Of a stretch of 13,152 nt of DNA, positions 4,960-12,822 are shown one piece after another. A program made the position numbers and the translations under genes. This stretch comes from Gallionella sp. Lineage in GTDB: Bacteria > Pseudomonadota > Gammaproteobacteria > Burkholderiales > Gallionellaceae. Position 1 is the first letter of the stretch; the number at the start of each line of letters is the position of its first letter. The notes below the pieces were generated by a model. It was not told where the DNA came from, searched no databases, and saw only the letters and a program-made list of their open reading frames with translations. Location: assembly GCA_025362155.1 (NCBI GenBank), contig JANYHX010000300.1:1-13152 (forward strand), written 5' to 3'.

Positions 4960-6519
4960 TTAAATCTGCGGATGCGCCCGCTCCAGCCTGCTGTGCAATT
5001 TATTGAGTGCATTCAGATAAGCCTTGGCGGAAGCCACCACAATGTCGGTATCGGCGCCCTGCCCGTTCACAATGCGACCACCTTTGGACAGCCGCACGGT
5101 CACTTCGCCCTGTGCATCCGTGCCGCTGGTGATGTTATTCACTGAGAATAATTGTAACTCCGCACCGCTCTTGACGACCTGCTCTATCGCTTTGAAGGTG
5201 GCATCCACCGGTCCGCCGCCTTGCGCATCGGCCTGATGCTCAGCGCCGTCTATGCTCATCACCACACGCGCCGTAGGCAGGGCTCCGGTTTCGGAATGCG
5301 CACGCATCGCGACCAATCGATAATATTCGCTGATCTGCGCTATCGCTTCGTCGCTGACCAATGCTTGCAAATCTTCATCGAAAATTTCGTTCTTGCGATC
5401 TGCCAATTCCTTGAAGCGCTGAAAGGCGGCGTTGAAGGCTTCTTCAGAAGCAAACTCGATATTCAACGCAGTAAAACGCTGACGCAATGCATTGCGACCG
5501 GAGAGTTTACCCAGAGTTAATTTGTTGGCGTTCCAGCCCACGTCTTCAGCACGCATGATTTCGTAGGTCTCGCGATGCTTGATCACACCGTCCTGATGGA
5601 TGCCAGACTCATGTGCAAATGCATTCGCCCCGACAATCGCCTTATTCGGCTGCACCGGATAACCGGTGATGCTGGACACCAGCTTGGAAGTCGGGACGAT
5701 CTGGGTGGTATCGATGCGCGTATCGAGGTTAAATATATCGCGGCGGGTTTTCACCGCCATGACCACTTCTTCGAGTGAAGCGTTGCCGGCACGCTCGCCC
5801 AGGCCATTAATGGTGCATTCCACCTGACGTGCACCGTTTAACACTGCCGACAAGGAATTCGCCACGGCGAGACCGAGATCATTATGGCAATGGGTGGACC
5901 AGATCACCTTGTCTGAATTCGGCACACGCGCAATTAACTGCCGCATGCGCTCGCCCCATGCTGCTGGAATAGAATAACCCACCGTGTCCGGCACATTCAG
6001 CGTCCTGGCGCCGGCCTGTATCGCCGCATCGAACACGCGTACCAGAAAATCCATGTCTGAGCGCACCGCATCCTCGGCAGAAAATTCCACGTCGTCGGTA
6101 TATTCCAGCGCCCATTTCACCGCGCTGATTGCACGCTCGACCACCTGATCCTCATTCATGCGCAATTTGTGCTGCATGTGGATAGGGCTGGTGGCGATGA
6201 AGGTATGGATGCGGCCCGATTTAGCTGATCGAATCGCCTCCCCGGCGCGGCGCACATCATTTTCCATGGCACGCGCCAACGAACATACTGTGGACTCCTT
6301 AACGGTTTTGGCCACCGCACTCACCGCCGCAAAATCTCCCGGACTGGCTGCGGCGAAGCCTGCTTCGATGATATCCACGCCCAATTTTTCCAGTTGACGG
6401 GCAATGCGGATTTTCATTTCCTGCGTCATCGCTGCGCCTGGGCTCTGTTCGCCATCGCGCAAGGTGGTATCGAAAATTATCAATTTGCCATTCATGTTAC
6501 TTGCCATTTTATTTTCCAT
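4960..6519 (-). CDS. leuA: 2-isopropylmalate synthase
   Basis: Catalyses the first committed step of leucine synthesis: acetyl-CoA plus 2-oxoisovalerate gives 2-isopropylmalate. A 519-residue protein of usual length. The TIM-barrel catalytic domain covers residues about 12-280 with [14 protein letters not shown] (16-29; Asp17 is a metal ligand), [15 protein letters not shown] (208-222; His210 and His212 metal ligands) and [13 protein letters not shown] (239-251; Asn246). A linker with [13 protein letters not shown] (299-311) follows, then the C-terminal regulatory domain (about 395-519) expected to give leucine feedback inhibition. The start chosen is the ATG at 6519, with GGAG six to seven bases upstream. 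An in-frame TTG at 6531 sits inside that ribosome site. Further ATGs follow at 6507 and 6495. The gene is preceded by its own promoter and a Leu-rich leader peptide, so attenuation-type control is likely. Confidence 0.97.
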
Positions 6520-6535
6520 GCTGAACTCCAATGAA

Positions 6536-6583
6536 ATAGGTTAAATCCAATAAATAGATCAAGCTTGGGGAACCTATACGGTT
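6536..6583 (-). promoter_or_regulatory. Competing RNA pairings in the leuA leader
   Basis: In minus-strand RNA, AACC (6580-6583) can pair with GGTT (6571-6574) across a short loop. The stretch ATAGGTT (6571-6577) can instead pair with AACCTAT (6536-6542), a perfect 7-base match just upstream of the leuA ribosome site. The two pairings share GGTT and exclude each other, as expected of an attenuator-like switch between the leader peptide and leuA. No GC-rich hairpin with a T-run was seen, so the switch may act on ribosome access or Rho instead of intrinsic termination. This is inference from base pairing alone. Confidence 0.45.
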
Positions 6584-6617
6584 GCCGCGCTCGCTTCAAA
6601 CTTGTGTGGGGTATTGA

Positions 6618-6698
6618 TTAGCGCGCGCTACGCAGCAGCAGCGCAGCCAGCAGGCTGAACGTGGATTGGAGTGTTGCGATGTAGGTTGAAAAGTGCAT
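6618..6698 (-). CDS. leuL: Leucine-rich leader peptide of leuA (leuL-like)
   Basis: A 26-codon frame, too short for routine gene calling, that starts MHFSTYIATLQSTF and continues SLLAALLLRSAR before TAA. Six of 26 codons are Leu (positions 10, 16, 17, 20, 21, 22), five of them clustered near the end, the pattern of attenuator leader peptides such as E. coli leuL. It ends 98 bases before the leuA start. Translation stalling at the Leu codons when charged tRNA-Leu is scarce would change folding of the following RNA. No ribosome site precedes the ATG. The upstream -10 box ends 7 bases before it, so the transcript probably begins at or next to the AUG (leaderless), as known for the rhizobial trpL leader. 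The Leu codons are mainly CTG, with one CTC. Confidence 0.75.
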   Translation of the reverse strand: MHFSTYIATLQSTFSLLAALLLRSAR

Positions 6699-6705
6699 GG
6701 ATGAG

Positions 6706-6734
6706 AATATAACGGCTTTGCCGCGACGGTGCAA
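6706..6734 (-). promoter_or_regulatory. Promoter of the leuL-leuA transcript
   Basis: Minus strand: TTGCAC (6729-6734), exactly 17 bases, then TATATT (6706-6711). The predicted start falls at 6698-6699, the first base of the leader-peptide ATG. It lies downstream of the srkA stop, so leuA does not depend on read-through from srkA. Confidence 0.6.
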
Positions 6735-6775
6735 TATTTTTATAGTGAACAAAAAAGCAGATACTTCGCCTCCCC

Positions 6776-7756
6776 CTACGATACCCATAACGGCGGTTCA
6801 TCCATCAGCGCGATTTGTTCGCGCAATTCCAGGACGCGGTCTTGCCAGTAACGTTGGGTGTTGAACCACGGGAAGGCAACGGGAAAGGCTGGATCATCCC
6901 AGCGCCGCGCGATCCACGCGGCGTAATGGATCAGACGCAAAGTACGCAACGCCTCAACCAGATGCAGCTCGCGCGGATCGAAGTCGTAAAAATCTTCGTA
7001 GCCCGCCAGAATATCCGCGAACTGCCGTGTCATGTCGGCGCGCTCCCCGGACAACAGCATCCACAAATCCTGAATAGCTGGGCCCATGCGGCTGTCATCA
7101 AAATCCACGAAGTGTGGCCCGGCATCCGTCCATAGCACGTTGCCAACATGGCAGTCGCCGTGCAGACGCAACATTCGAACTGTGCCCGCGCGGTCGACGC
7201 AGCGCTGCACACCATCCAGCGCCTGCGCGACCACGCCGCGATAAACTTCGATGAGTTCTGCCGGAATAAAATCGTGCACCAGCAAATAAGTGCTCGGTTC
7301 TACACCGAAGCTCTGAATGTCCAGCGTGGGACGTTCAAAATAAGGTTCCAGCGCGCCGACGGCATGGATGCGGCCAATGAAGCGTCCCATCCATTCCAGC
7401 GTTTCGCGGTTATCCAGTTCCGGCGCACGTCCGCCGTGTTTGGTGAAAACAGAAAAACGAAAGCCATTAAACGCGTGCAGCGTGTGACCGTTGATTTCCA
7501 ACGCGGGGACGACAGGAATTTCGCGCTCGGCAAGCGTCGCGACAAACGCGTGCTCCTCTAGAATGCCCGCATCAAGCCAACGTGCAGGGCGATAAAACTT
7601 GGCGACCAGCGGCGGGCCGTCTTCCATGCCCGCCTGATAGACGCGGTTTTCATAGCTGTTAAGCGCAAGCAAGCGACCATCTCCGCGCAGGCCGATGCTG
7701 TCCAAAGCATCAAGCACGGCATCGGGGGTGAGCGCAGTAAAAGGTTGGATGTGCAT
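6776..7756 (-). CDS. srkA: Stress response kinase A (SrkA/YihE/RdoA)
   Basis: A Ser/Thr kinase with the aminoglycoside-phosphotransferase fold, 326 residues (E. coli SrkA 328). In E. coli it protects cells from stress-induced death linked to reactive oxygen and the MazEF pathway. Matching features: ALNSYENRVYQ (residues 31-41), VAKFYRPARW (51-60, with the ATP-binding Lys), ILEEHAF (65-71), RLHGDCHVGNVLW (197-209; catalytic Asp201 and Asn206), FVDFDDSRMGPAIQDLWML (216-234; metal-binding Asp218) and the conserved end EPPL. The start chosen is the ATG at 7756, matching the E. coli N-terminus. A further upstream frame to 7852 runs antisense through a transposase remnant and is rejected. There is no strong ribosome site before 7756. 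The region upstream, where its promoter should lie, is partly made of IS3 remnant DNA. Confidence 0.95.
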   Translation of the reverse strand: MHIQPFTALTPDAVLDALDSIGLRGDGRLLALNSYENRVYQAGMEDGPPLVAKFYRPARWLDAGILEEHAFVATLAEREIPVVPALEINGHTLHAFNGFRFSVFTKHGGRAPELDNRETLEWMGRFIGRIHAVGALEPYFERPTLDIQSFGVEPSTYLLVHDFIPAELIEVYRGVVAQALDGVQRCVDRAGTVRMLRLHGDCHVGNVLWTDAGPHFVDFDDSRMGPAIQDLWMLLSGERADMTRQFADILAGYEDFYDFDPRELHLVEALRTLRLIHYAAWIARRWDDPAFPVAFPWFNTQRYWQDRVLELREQIALMDEPPLWVS

Positions 7757-10772: not shown

Positions 10773-11096
10773 CTAACTGTGTACTGCTTCTTTAAGCACG
10801 TTAGCCGCCCACTGATTGAGGCTTTGCCCCGAAGCATGAGCAGCGATCAATGCTGCTGTATGCACTTCGCTGGGGACGCGCAACATCAATTTTCCCGAAG
10901 CAGGTTTTTGCGGGGTCGGGTTAGTGCTTAAGTAAAAATCAATCGCATGACGAAAATCAGTGCGCAGTGCATTGACTGTTGTACCATGGAAACTAATCAC
11001 ATCTTCAATACCCAGTACGCGACCGACAAAAATGTTGTCGCGGTCATCAAAGTCGATACGGGCAGTGTAGCCTTTGTAAGTCATGGAATTTTTCAT
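10773..11096 (-). CDS. hicB: HicB-type antitoxin
   Basis: A 107-residue protein. The N-terminal part (about 5-57) is a HicB partial RNase-H-like fold: MTYKGYTARIDFDDRDNIFVG, then GIEDVISFHGTTVNALRTDF and HAIDFYL. After a short proline-rich linker (NPTPQKPASG), residues about 68-107 form a ribbon-helix-helix DNA-binding domain (KLMLRVPSEVHTAALIAAH, then SLNQWAANVLKEAV). It should bind and neutralise HicA and repress the operon. Its ATG overlaps the hicA stop by four bases (ATGA type), which couples translation. Toxin-first order is usual for hicAB. Confidence 0.92.
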   Translation of the reverse strand: MKNSMTYKGYTARIDFDDRDNIFVGRVLGIEDVISFHGTTVNALRTDFRHAIDFYLSTNPTPQKPASGKLMLRVPSEVHTAALIAAHASGQSLNQWAANVLKEAVHS

Positions 11097-11347
11097 TGCT
11101 GAATCCCCATTGTTAAAAACCAGTCGCGTATATTTTCCACTTGATACCTTTTTGCTTCTTTGCCCGGATGTGGCCGGTGCGCATCCATGCGCTTTCCATT
11201 TAATATAAATGCCATGCGTGAACCACTGCCTTCAATAATTTCACCACCCAAAGCAATAACCAACGCTTCAATATCTGAAAACACCAAAGAAGCCAAGGTA
11301 GGCTTGGTAAATATTGCTTTGAGCGTCTTGGCGTGTTTGGTCTTCAA
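11093..11347 (-). CDS. hicA: HicA-type mRNA interferase toxin, TTG start
   Basis: An 84-residue HicA with a double-stranded-RNA-binding-like fold: KAIFTKPTLASLVFSDIEAL, GSGSRMAFILNGKRM and HRPHPGKEAKRYQVENIRDW (residues 57-76). HicA toxins cleave mRNA in the ribosome-bound or free state and cause growth arrest. In the classic subgroup the catalytic His lies in a G-S-H motif; here that place reads GSGSR, as in the HRPHP subgroup, so the catalytic residue may be a His of HRPHP. The only usable start is TTG at 11347: an in-frame stop lies 21 bases further upstream and no early ATG exists. There is no ribosome site, and the predicted transcript start is within a few bases of the TTG, so the message is nearly leaderless, which would keep toxin synthesis low. 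Confidence 0.88.
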   Translation of the reverse strand: MKTKHAKTLKAIFTKPTLASLVFSDIEALVIALGGEIIEGSGSRMAFILNGKRMDAHRPHPGKEAKRYQVENIRDWFLTMGIQQ

Positions 11348-11428: not shown

Positions 11429-11455
11429 AAAAAAACGGGGAGTGGCTCAGACCCG
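11429..11455 (-). terminator. Intrinsic terminator at the end of the RAYT gene
   Basis: Minus-strand RNA: CGGG and CCCG (11436-11439 with 11452-11455) pair, and an inner GAG/CTC stem forms after a 3-base bulge. Seven T follow (11435-11429). The stem starts inside the last codons of the RAYT gene. It separates that gene from hicAB transcription. Confidence 0.6.
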
Positions 11456-12157
11456 ATTGATTTTAAATTGCTCCGATTTCCTATCCCCGCCCTTAGCTGC
11501 CGGCTCAACCCGCCTCCCCAATTTCTGCTGAATACGCCGCTTGAAGCGATCATTACCCAACACCCAGGCTTTATTGGTGGCATCCCTTATTTCGGCCACG
11601 CCGCTTTCAGGAATGTGATGCTTGAATAGCTGGCGGTATGCAGTCTGACGCGCCTTGTCTATCTTGCCCAAACGCCGGTATTCGAGATGCGTGGTCACCA
11701 ACTCATTCGGCTGTCCCAGCGCATTGTAATGATAGCTCGACCAAGGATATTCAGACGGATGAGATACCATGTCTGCGCGCACCGGATTCAATTCGATGTA
11801 GCGCATGCAGGTTAACAAATAGGTTTCGCTATCGATCAAGGTGGCTTTGTATCGGCCTTCCCACAATGTGCCGGTGCGCTGATAGCAATAGTTGTAGTAT
11901 TGCACATAGTAACGCCCCAGCATTTGCATGGCTTTGGAGAGGCTTTGTTGTTCATGGGGAGTAACCAGCAAATGTACATGGTTGGTCATCAGCACATAGG
12001 CGTGAACATCGCAGCCGTGTGCGACGCAGGCCAACTGCAATTTTTCAAGGTAGAACCGGTAATCGGCATCGGCGCAGAATATCTCGCTGCGATTATTGCC
12101 CCGCACGATCACATGCTGCGGTTGCCCGGGGAGGACAAATCTGGGTAGGCGCGCCAT
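11447..12157 (-). CDS. REP-associated tyrosine transposase (RAYT, IS200/IS605-like Y1)
   Basis: A 236-residue single-strand DNA transposase of the Y1 HUH class, thought to act on REP/BIME palindromes. Visible features: the N-terminus MARLPRFVLPGQPQHVIVRGNNR typical of the family, HUH motif TNHVHLLV (His60, His62), GRYYVQYYNYCYQRTGTLWEGRYKA (residues 81-105), and RYIELNPVRADM (119-130) with the probable catalytic Tyr120. A basic C-terminal extension ends KINRV. The ATG at 12157 has GAGGTG at 5-base spacing, partly tied up in a hairpin. The gene appears intact. Its 3' end carries ATCAATCGGGTCTGAGCC, and a related GGGTTGACTC lies near 12211-12219 upstream, both similar to the signature beside a second, decayed copy at 12883-12987. 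Confidence 0.93.
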   Translation of the reverse strand: MARLPRFVLPGQPQHVIVRGNNRSEIFCADADYRFYLEKLQLACVAHGCDVHAYVLMTNHVHLLVTPHEQQSLSKAMQMLGRYYVQYYNYCYQRTGTLWEGRYKATLIDSETYLLTCMRYIELNPVRADMVSHPSEYPWSSYHYNALGQPNELVTTHLEYRRLGKIDKARQTAYRQLFKHHIPESGVAEIRDATNKAWVLGNDRFKRRIQQKLGRRVEPAAKGGDRKSEQFKINRV

Positions 12158-12212: not shown

Positions 12213-12548
12213 TCAACCCAAAGCAGACAACGCCGCCTCCGGTGCTTTGTCCAGCACTTTCAACAGAGCCTTGGCCGCCCCCGTCGGGCGACGTTTGCCT
12301 TGTTCCCAATTGCGTATCGTTTCGAGCGAGACATCAATACGATGAGAAAATTCAAGTTGACTCAATCCCAAACGGCGGCGCACGCGACGTGCAAATTTTG
12401 CCGCATCTTGCATGGCATCTTTACCGTCCTTGGTCATTTGCAAGGCGATGTCACTCTCACTCGTGGCATCCAAGCGATTCTTGTTTACACGGCCTCGTGG
12501 CAATCCAGTAAGCGTCACGGAGTCAATTTTCACGTTCACTGTTTTCAT
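12213..12548 (-). CDS. XRE-family helix-turn-helix antitoxin paired with BrnT
   Basis: A 111-residue protein. The N-terminal half (about 1-45, MKTVNVKIDSVTLTGLPRG and beyond) is charged and is probably the toxin-binding part. Residues about 50-107 are a Cro/C1-type domain: FARRVRRRLGLSQLEFSHRI, then DVSLETIRNWEQGKRRPTG and AAKALLKVLDKAPEAALSAL. The start chosen is the ATG at 12548, nine bases after AGAGG. An ATG at 12554 is too close to that site. It overlaps the 3' end of brnT by 26 bases, indicating coupled translation. The canonical partner BrnA has a ribbon-helix-helix domain, so this is a variant pairing. The stop codon lies within a GGGTTGACTC motif resembling the RAYT boundary signature. 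Confidence 0.85.
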   Translation of the reverse strand: MKTVNVKIDSVTLTGLPRGRVNKNRLDATSESDIALQMTKDGKDAMQDAAKFARRVRRRLGLSQLEFSHRIDVSLETIRNWEQGKRRPTGAAKALLKVLDKAPEAALSALG

Positions 12549-12822
12549 AATCATCTACCTCTCGTTGGTTAGCTTTACGTGCTGAAATGATCCGGAGTAC
12601 CGTGCCACGAATGGTGTACGCAACAAAGAAAACTCGCCCATCAATGGCACCAAGCAATTGATAACGAGCTTCTCCATAATCCCAACGCGTGTCCTTGTGG
12701 ATCAATCGATCCGCATCCATAAATGCGTGCAGCACATAAACGAAGTCGAATCCTCGTTCGGCAAAGCACGCATCGCTCTTGTCCTGATCCCATTCAAATT
12801 CCATGCGTGCATGGTAGGCCAT
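12523..12822 (-). CDS. brnT: BrnT-family ribonuclease toxin
   Basis: A 99-residue RelE-like-fold toxin of the BrnT type; characterised members cleave RNA and stop growth. Conserved features: MEFEWDQDKSDACFAERGFDF (residues 7-27, EWD-x-x-K), the D-x-R-x-DYGEARYQLLGAIDGRVFFVAYTIRG region (about 44-73) and the C-terminal RIISARKANQREVDDYEN. The ATG at 12822 has a weak AGG four bases upstream. An ATG at 12804, matching the usual MEFEWD start, has no ribosome site, so either is possible. The gene comes first and overlaps the XRE antitoxin, the usual order for BrnT modules. Confidence 0.9.
   Translation of the reverse strand: MAYHARMEFEWDQDKSDACFAERGFDFVYVLHAFMDADRLIHKDTRWDYGEARYQLLGAIDGRVFFVAYTIRGTVLRIISARKANQREVDDYENSEREN

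Follow-up and report, generated by a model that had tools for sequence, protein, structure and literature searches.

The leuA gene of the window (the whole 13,152-nt stretch of Gallionella sp. DNA analysed here) is preceded by an element that very probably encodes a leader peptide responding to leucine and controlling leuA in cis, and for which we infer the transcription start, the stalling, the sign of the response and the output. An earlier note, made from the DNA letters alone, had read the element as a leaderless leucine leader peptide, and comparison with relatives strongly supports this reading at the level of sequence, with support for the promoter-to-ATG geometry, the ORF with its run of Leu codons, the hairpins, the C-rich segment, the scarcity of terminators and the position ahead of leuA.

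All features of the element lie on the minus strand. The leuA gene (2-isopropylmalate synthase; 4960..6519, ATG at 6519) was identified by the NCBIfam models NF002087 and TIGR00973, both above cutoff, and a Shine-Dalgarno (SD) site, TTGGAG, can be read before it at 6526..6531. Upstream, a -35 hexamer TTGCAC (6729..6734), the TTGC of which is invariant in the family alignment (n=53), is separated by a 17-nt spacer from a -10 hexamer TATATT (6706..6711); the spacer carries an AAA (6717..6719) placed 6-8 nt upstream of the -10, and 7 nt lie between the -10 and the ATG of a 26-codon ORF, MHFSTYIATLQSTFSLLAALLLRSAR (6618..6698; ATG at 6698, TAA at 6620-6618). There is no SD-like site in the sequence before this ATG, and direct reading confirms both the promoter and the frame lacking a ribosome site that had been described. 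Leu codons occupy positions 16, 17, 20, 21 and 22 of the ORF (6633..6653, the putative control region), codon 22 being CTG in 71/71 copies, and the end of the ORF is predicted to fold into a hairpin over this Leu run (GCGCTGC-TGCTGC-GTAGCGC in the window; 6625..6644). Directly 3' of the stop follow 20 nt of C-rich, almost G-free sequence (6598..6617), then a hairpin designated H2 (GGCAACC-GTATA-GGTTCC; 6569..6586), which was delineated by covariation, fold and alignment, and finally AACCTAT (6536..6542), which stands 4 nt before the leuA SD and is an alternative partner of ATAGGTT (6577-6571). The leader stop is 98 nt from leuA.

In the window, leuA comes after ilvC, psd, a pssA-like gene and a gene for a kinase. 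The kinase gene, of the serine/threonine type (NF008738; 6776-7852), is found between the pssA-like gene and leuA, whereas in relatives such as L002 the leader follows the apparent end of pssA, as judged by eye. Two toxin-antitoxin pairs, HicA/HicB and BrnT with an HTH partner, are located at 10773-11347 and 12213-12822, with an IS200-like Y1 transposase gene (11447-12157) between them. The window copy also has an extra stretch before the leuA SD (6526-6565), in which CTATTTATTGGA and CTATTTCATTGGA are repeated and which is absent from the aligned relatives, and its H2 is shortened compared to most of them.

The geometry of the promoter and the ORF was examined in a pooled set of 221 unique leaders (of 247), 95 of them of the family type, i.e. 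91 found by peptide motif and 4 from other sets. The start codon is ATG in all 221, and no SD-like site precedes it in any of the 95 family-type or the 126 other leaders. In all 95 family-type leaders the gap between the -10 and the ATG is 6-8 nt (4-11 were allowed), distributed as 6 nt in 39, 7 nt in 55 and 8 nt in 1, and the base at -1 of the ATG is a pyrimidine (C or T) in 94/95. This geometry places the transcription start on the A of the leader ATG, and we take the transcript to begin there, as far as promoter sequence can indicate it. An AAA in the spacer, 4-14 nt upstream of the -10, accompanies 95/95 family-type and 104/123 other leaders, with the qualification that the leaders pooled under "named" and "order" were picked by promoter patterns, so that their promoter statistics are biased. 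The promoter common to these leaders approximates to TTGC, a spacer bearing AAA and CC, TATATT, and a gap of 6-8 nt to the ATG. The AAA(A) of the spacer, with CC after it, is conserved across families nearly as well as the hexamers, and may be either a site for a regulator or a part of the promoter. A simple sigma-70 scan did not list the leader promoter of the window, because TTGCAC shares just 3/6 bases with TTGACA.

LeuA was found in 135/150 family genomes, and 110 upstream regions, the window's own included, were taken out of 143 LeuA places. Conservation of the frame had been set beforehand as one of the points on which the reading could fail, and the frame is conserved: it lies ahead of leuA in 92/110 family regions, 91 by a peptide motif search that demanded no promoter, together with L069, where the leader is present with one motif residue changed, as seen by eye. 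The 91 include imperfect matches: L032 carries an insert, the ends of L065 and L080 are altered, and L043 has diverged. In the order sample, comprising 121 genomes with LeuA and 100 fetched upstream regions (that of L239 being 101 bases), a strict scan for a short Leu-clustered frame with correct -10 and -35 spacing matched 36/100 regions, while the reverse strand gave 0 matches and each of ten dinucleotide shuffles gave 0-2. The matches fall in 25/45 families; L159, L167, L177 and L185 have a similar frame that fails the strict rule. Applied to the family, the same scan matched 71/110 regions, its controls giving 0 (reverse strand) and 0-2 (per shuffle).

A sequence model of promoter plus frame (R1) gave matches in 117/300 order genomes at E 0.01, the weak ones often partial, and at E <=5e-4 in 74/300 order genomes as opposed to 0/231 others in a class-wide draw, where the 231 include at least 2 genomes of the order, the class draw required 90% completeness while the order draw did not, and both large searches used stricter filters that lose weak matches. 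All 22 non-family loci from the R1 search sit upstream of a leuA motif, and in an exact pattern scan of named genomes a leuA motif lies <=260 nt downstream in 99/118 among the matches listed. The carriers among the matches listed include Nitrosomonas, Nitrosospira, Nitrotoga, Gallionella, Sulfuricella and Methylophilaceae, names by which the order would be the betaproteobacterial one.

The leader is wholly missing from 15/110 family upstream regions, and it decays in some lineages. Repeat-like inserts interrupt the leader ORF in L072 and L032; in L017 such an insert replaces both promoter and ORF, with the C-rich segment and H2 retained; and L073 and L079 have ACG in place of the start codon, together with a shortened frame. 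In G020, a genome lacking the frame and the one genome so checked, no leader copy matched elsewhere. The 15/110 family regions without leader, together with the 64/100 order regions that fail the strict scan, imply that the leader is dispensable.

The mechanism that can be hypothesized begins with transcription at the A of the leader ATG, upon which a ribosome would initiate on the leaderless 5' end and make the Leu-rich peptide. When charged tRNA-Leu is scarce, the ribosome would stall at Leu codons 16-22, and the stalled ribosome may then alter the fate of the RNA downstream, that is, of the ORF-terminal hairpin, the C-rich segment and H2, such that leuA is expressed. The parts of RNA invoked here recur in relatives. 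A stem of >=5 pairs is present in the last 8 codons of 93/95 family-type and 54/56 other leaders, where permuted-codon controls gave means of 57 and 24 and maxima of 64 and 30, respectively. A stable hairpin, sought between +15 and +75, starts at a median of 24-30 nt 3' of the stop, and the post-leader region folds on average beyond shuffled sequences (mean z -0.97 in the family and -1.41 in others); the window's own leader fold barely beats shuffles (z -1.22, with 27/200 shuffles folding as well). Two other candidates for pairing were discarded: the ORF hairpin CAGCC-TGCT-GGCTG, with zero double changes and one pair failing in 13/40 sequences, and the small hairpin AGGT-TTA-ACCT, little above shuffles.

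The claim that no intrinsic terminator is involved is supported by comparison. With a terminator defined as a perfect stem >=5 plus 6 T in 8, one was found between leader and leuA in 0/91 family leaders and 2/130 others, and an intrinsic terminator was rejected as the output. A terminator pattern scan of the window returned a single site on the minus strand, which falls within the promoter 5' of the leader. L127 and L130, of one family, have a post-leader hairpin followed by a U-rich tract, the nearest look to an intrinsic terminator.

For the output we lean slightly towards Rho-dependent premature termination over translational control of leuA, the two being near even. In the former, which we consider a fair way short of established but quite possible, the C-rich segment would serve as a rut-like entry site, and stalling just upstream of it would modulate Rho. 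Consistent with this, the fraction of G in the 20 nt after the stop is 0.075 in family-type leaders, compared with 0.265 further on, and 0.062 compared with 0.257 in other families, being lower in 93/95 and 121/126 leaders, respectively, and the near absence of intrinsic terminators points the same way. The arrangement of a leader ORF and then immediately a candidate Rho site, without a U-tract, recalls Rho attenuation of the tna type; however, tnaC arrests at its stop codon in response to tryptophan, unlike the stall at Leu codons proposed here, and the Rho site of the leuA leader is a candidate. Against Rho, the segment of ~20-25 nt is short for a Rho primary site, and a ribosome stalled at Leu 20-22 would extend no further than roughly the last codons, leaving the C-rich segment uncovered, which means that the sign of Rho regulation is not obvious.

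The other output, translational control of leuA, is possible but slightly less likely, and the scarcity of terminators would suit it too: the position of the ribosome would decide whether H2 forms (AACC:GGTT) or whether its GGTT pairs with the AACC on the side of the leuA ribosome-binding site (RBS), and leuA translation would follow. The two exclusive pairings posited in the earlier note are both present. In the window, AACC-GTATA-GGTT (within 6586-6569) excludes the pairing of ATAGGTT (6577-6571) with AACCTAT (6542-6536), the latter adjoining the leuA RBS. Double-change cells of H2 number 18 in the 40 sequences of the genus compared with 10.7 in shuffles (covariation 0.164 vs 0.114) and the alternative pairing has 5 compared with 1.0 (0.197 vs 0.127), so that both exceed shuffles; in L028 all three pairing segments have changed together. 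However, pairs of H2 changed on both sides number 4 vs 3.4 shuffled and are not above expectation, and covariation is much the same (0.175, 0.183) when the partner is slid by one column, though far fewer cells are then paired. The energies are likewise close to those of shuffles even in the genus: the mean z is -0.15 in the genus and 0.16 and 0.01 elsewhere for the 3' arm of H2 with downstream sequence, and -0.62 in the genus and -0.06 and -0.12 elsewhere for the ORF end with the 5' arm of H2. An energetic enrichment of competing pairings was accordingly not adopted, its values being near zero with a best of -0.62. The ORF-end pairing, with 92.5% of cells paired and zero double changes, is neutral either way. 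The pairing switch is thus plausible in the window's genus and unproven in general.

Predictions of SD openness divide in a similar way. In the family, the predicted openness of the leuA SD is 0.21 in naked RNA and rises to 0.37-0.42 once the leader is occupied by a ribosome, and with the ribosome at the last Leu it is more than 0.2 higher than in naked RNA in 36/91 leaders and lower in 3, which favors control of leuA translation as had been proposed. On the other hand, a stall at the last Leu and a ribosome at the stop are not separated (3 up, 7 down of 91), and the C-rich segment equally suggests Rho, so that translational control is one putative output. Family SDs are predicted to pair with the 5' half of the ORF (0.676) as opposed to its 3' half (0.023; 0.183 in other families). 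Shuffling of the ORF shifts SD openness little, from 0.214 to 0.261, with the native value lower in 58/91; sequestration of the SD by the ORF was not adopted, given this small effect and the lack of matching two-sided changes by eye.

A further function may reside in the peptide itself. In most copies, Leu stands at codons 16-17 and 20-22, a control-codon cluster for the product amino acid, and the remainder of the peptide is also conserved: His2, Phe3 and Ile7 are unchanged in 71/71 copies of 26 codons while third bases vary, and Ser12 and Thr13 are kept in 70/71 family copies. For codons 2-13 the median dN is 0.21 and the median dS 1.1 (the latter computable in 338/600 pairs), while codons 14-26 have medians of 0.081 and 0.175, a pattern which implies that codons 2-13 are held as peptide and that the Leu-rich half is held also as nucleotides. 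That the N-terminal half, lacking the Leu run, is conserved as amino acids with synonymous sites free would fit an action of the nascent chain in the ribosome tunnel, or of the peptide in trans, by analogy with Sinorhizobium, where the leaderless peTrpL peptide itself is reported to act (PMC7298713). Nevertheless, we regard this as rather unlikely, since the N-terminus in question was seen in one family only, and elsewhere the same C-terminus is joined to unrelated N-termini; moreover, second in-genome matches to R1 are partial and cover mostly the Leu-run part (e.g., G035: 1.1e-5, positions 77-120). Outside the family, the C-terminal part of the peptide alone is shared: in 56 non-family leaders that were not selected by the CTGCTGCG pattern, LLR is present near the C-terminus in 52/56 and 41/56 end in R, and across families the leaders consist of a Leu-run frame, mostly ending LLRxxR and bearing a GC hairpin. 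That the promoter is simply a second leuA promoter and the small frame incidental to it, as its high conservation and the several genomes without the frame might suggest, is very improbable, considering that the frame, the Leu run, the fixed gap and the selection pattern are kept across many families.

The leucine-responsive leader can be compared to several known systems. In the enterobacterial leuL the ORF is SD-led and there is an intrinsic terminator, and this leu attenuator is what we take to be covered by the Rfam leu leader and the Pfam Leu_leader. It shares with the element described here a Leu-rich peptide ahead of leuA as the presumed stalling sensor, and differs in the SD (0/95 and 0/126 here) and in the terminator (0/91 and 2/130 here). 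Searches of Rfam at gathering thresholds gave no match on the window or on the loci of nine relatives, and at E 5 the region 6400-6800 matched one microRNA model, far below cutoff and on the other strand, and no leu leader; Pfam and NCBIfam gave no match for three leader peptides. Annotation by these libraries would therefore miss the leader.

The closest precedent seems to be actinobacterial. It had been suggested that a leaderless leader without terminator would be a design different from the enterobacterial one; such a design has a precedent, as the Streptomyces lividans LeuL1 is reported to be a leaderless leuA leader peptide lacking a typical intrinsic terminator (PMC8079986), and its authors point to other Actinobacteria. 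A LEU element had been proposed for Actinobacteria (PMC1262725). A Leu-run peptide ahead of leuA is common to the actinobacterial leaders and those described here, and the promoter geometry and terminator counts given above would fit a leaderless, terminator-less design here as well. However, the peptides differ, and the published base stem of the actinobacterial LEU element pairs the Leu run with the leuA SD, whereas the corresponding predicted values here are 0.023 (family) and 0.183 (others). The C-rich segment, the ORF-terminal hairpin and the AAA of the spacer are features seen here, and the actinobacterial likeness rests on others. Corynebacterium diphtheriae has a leaderless ilvB leader and a leuA leader, MNRANLLLLRRGGSQA, with a Leu run and then Arg (PMC5784534), both reminiscent of the present element; that leuA leader was assigned no start, and candidate Corynebacterium ilvB leaders overlap terminators (PMC1262725). 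A proteobacterial precedent for a leaderless ORF is provided by the trpL attenuator of Sinorhizobium meliloti, where the first codon of the leader ORF, ATG, opens the rnTrpL transcript (PMC7298713); it differs in sensing Trp instead of Leu and in having a transcription terminator. A Neisseria paper (PMC3032703) had no bearing on a leuA leader, and in the open-access literature, as far as its accessible parts reveal, no recognisable report of a betaproteobacterial leuA leader peptide was found.

Considering these comparisons, a leaderless, terminator-less leuA leader is known from Actinobacteria, and what appears new at the level of sequence is a betaproteobacterial form with a parallel design. 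A more inclusive and tentative proposal is a betaproteobacterial attenuation class with a dedicated promoter, leaderless sensing of Leu and a Rho or translational output, to which the Gallionella-type N-terminus adds a nascent-chain or trans function. If the leucine-responsive reading is true, a leaderless amino-acid sensor would stand at a central biosynthetic gene in many betaproteobacterial families, where such sensors have so far been described, in the literature accessible to us, for Actinobacteria and a rhizobium. It would also offer a natural system in which to ask how a ribosome on leaderless RNA controls expression without an intrinsic terminator.
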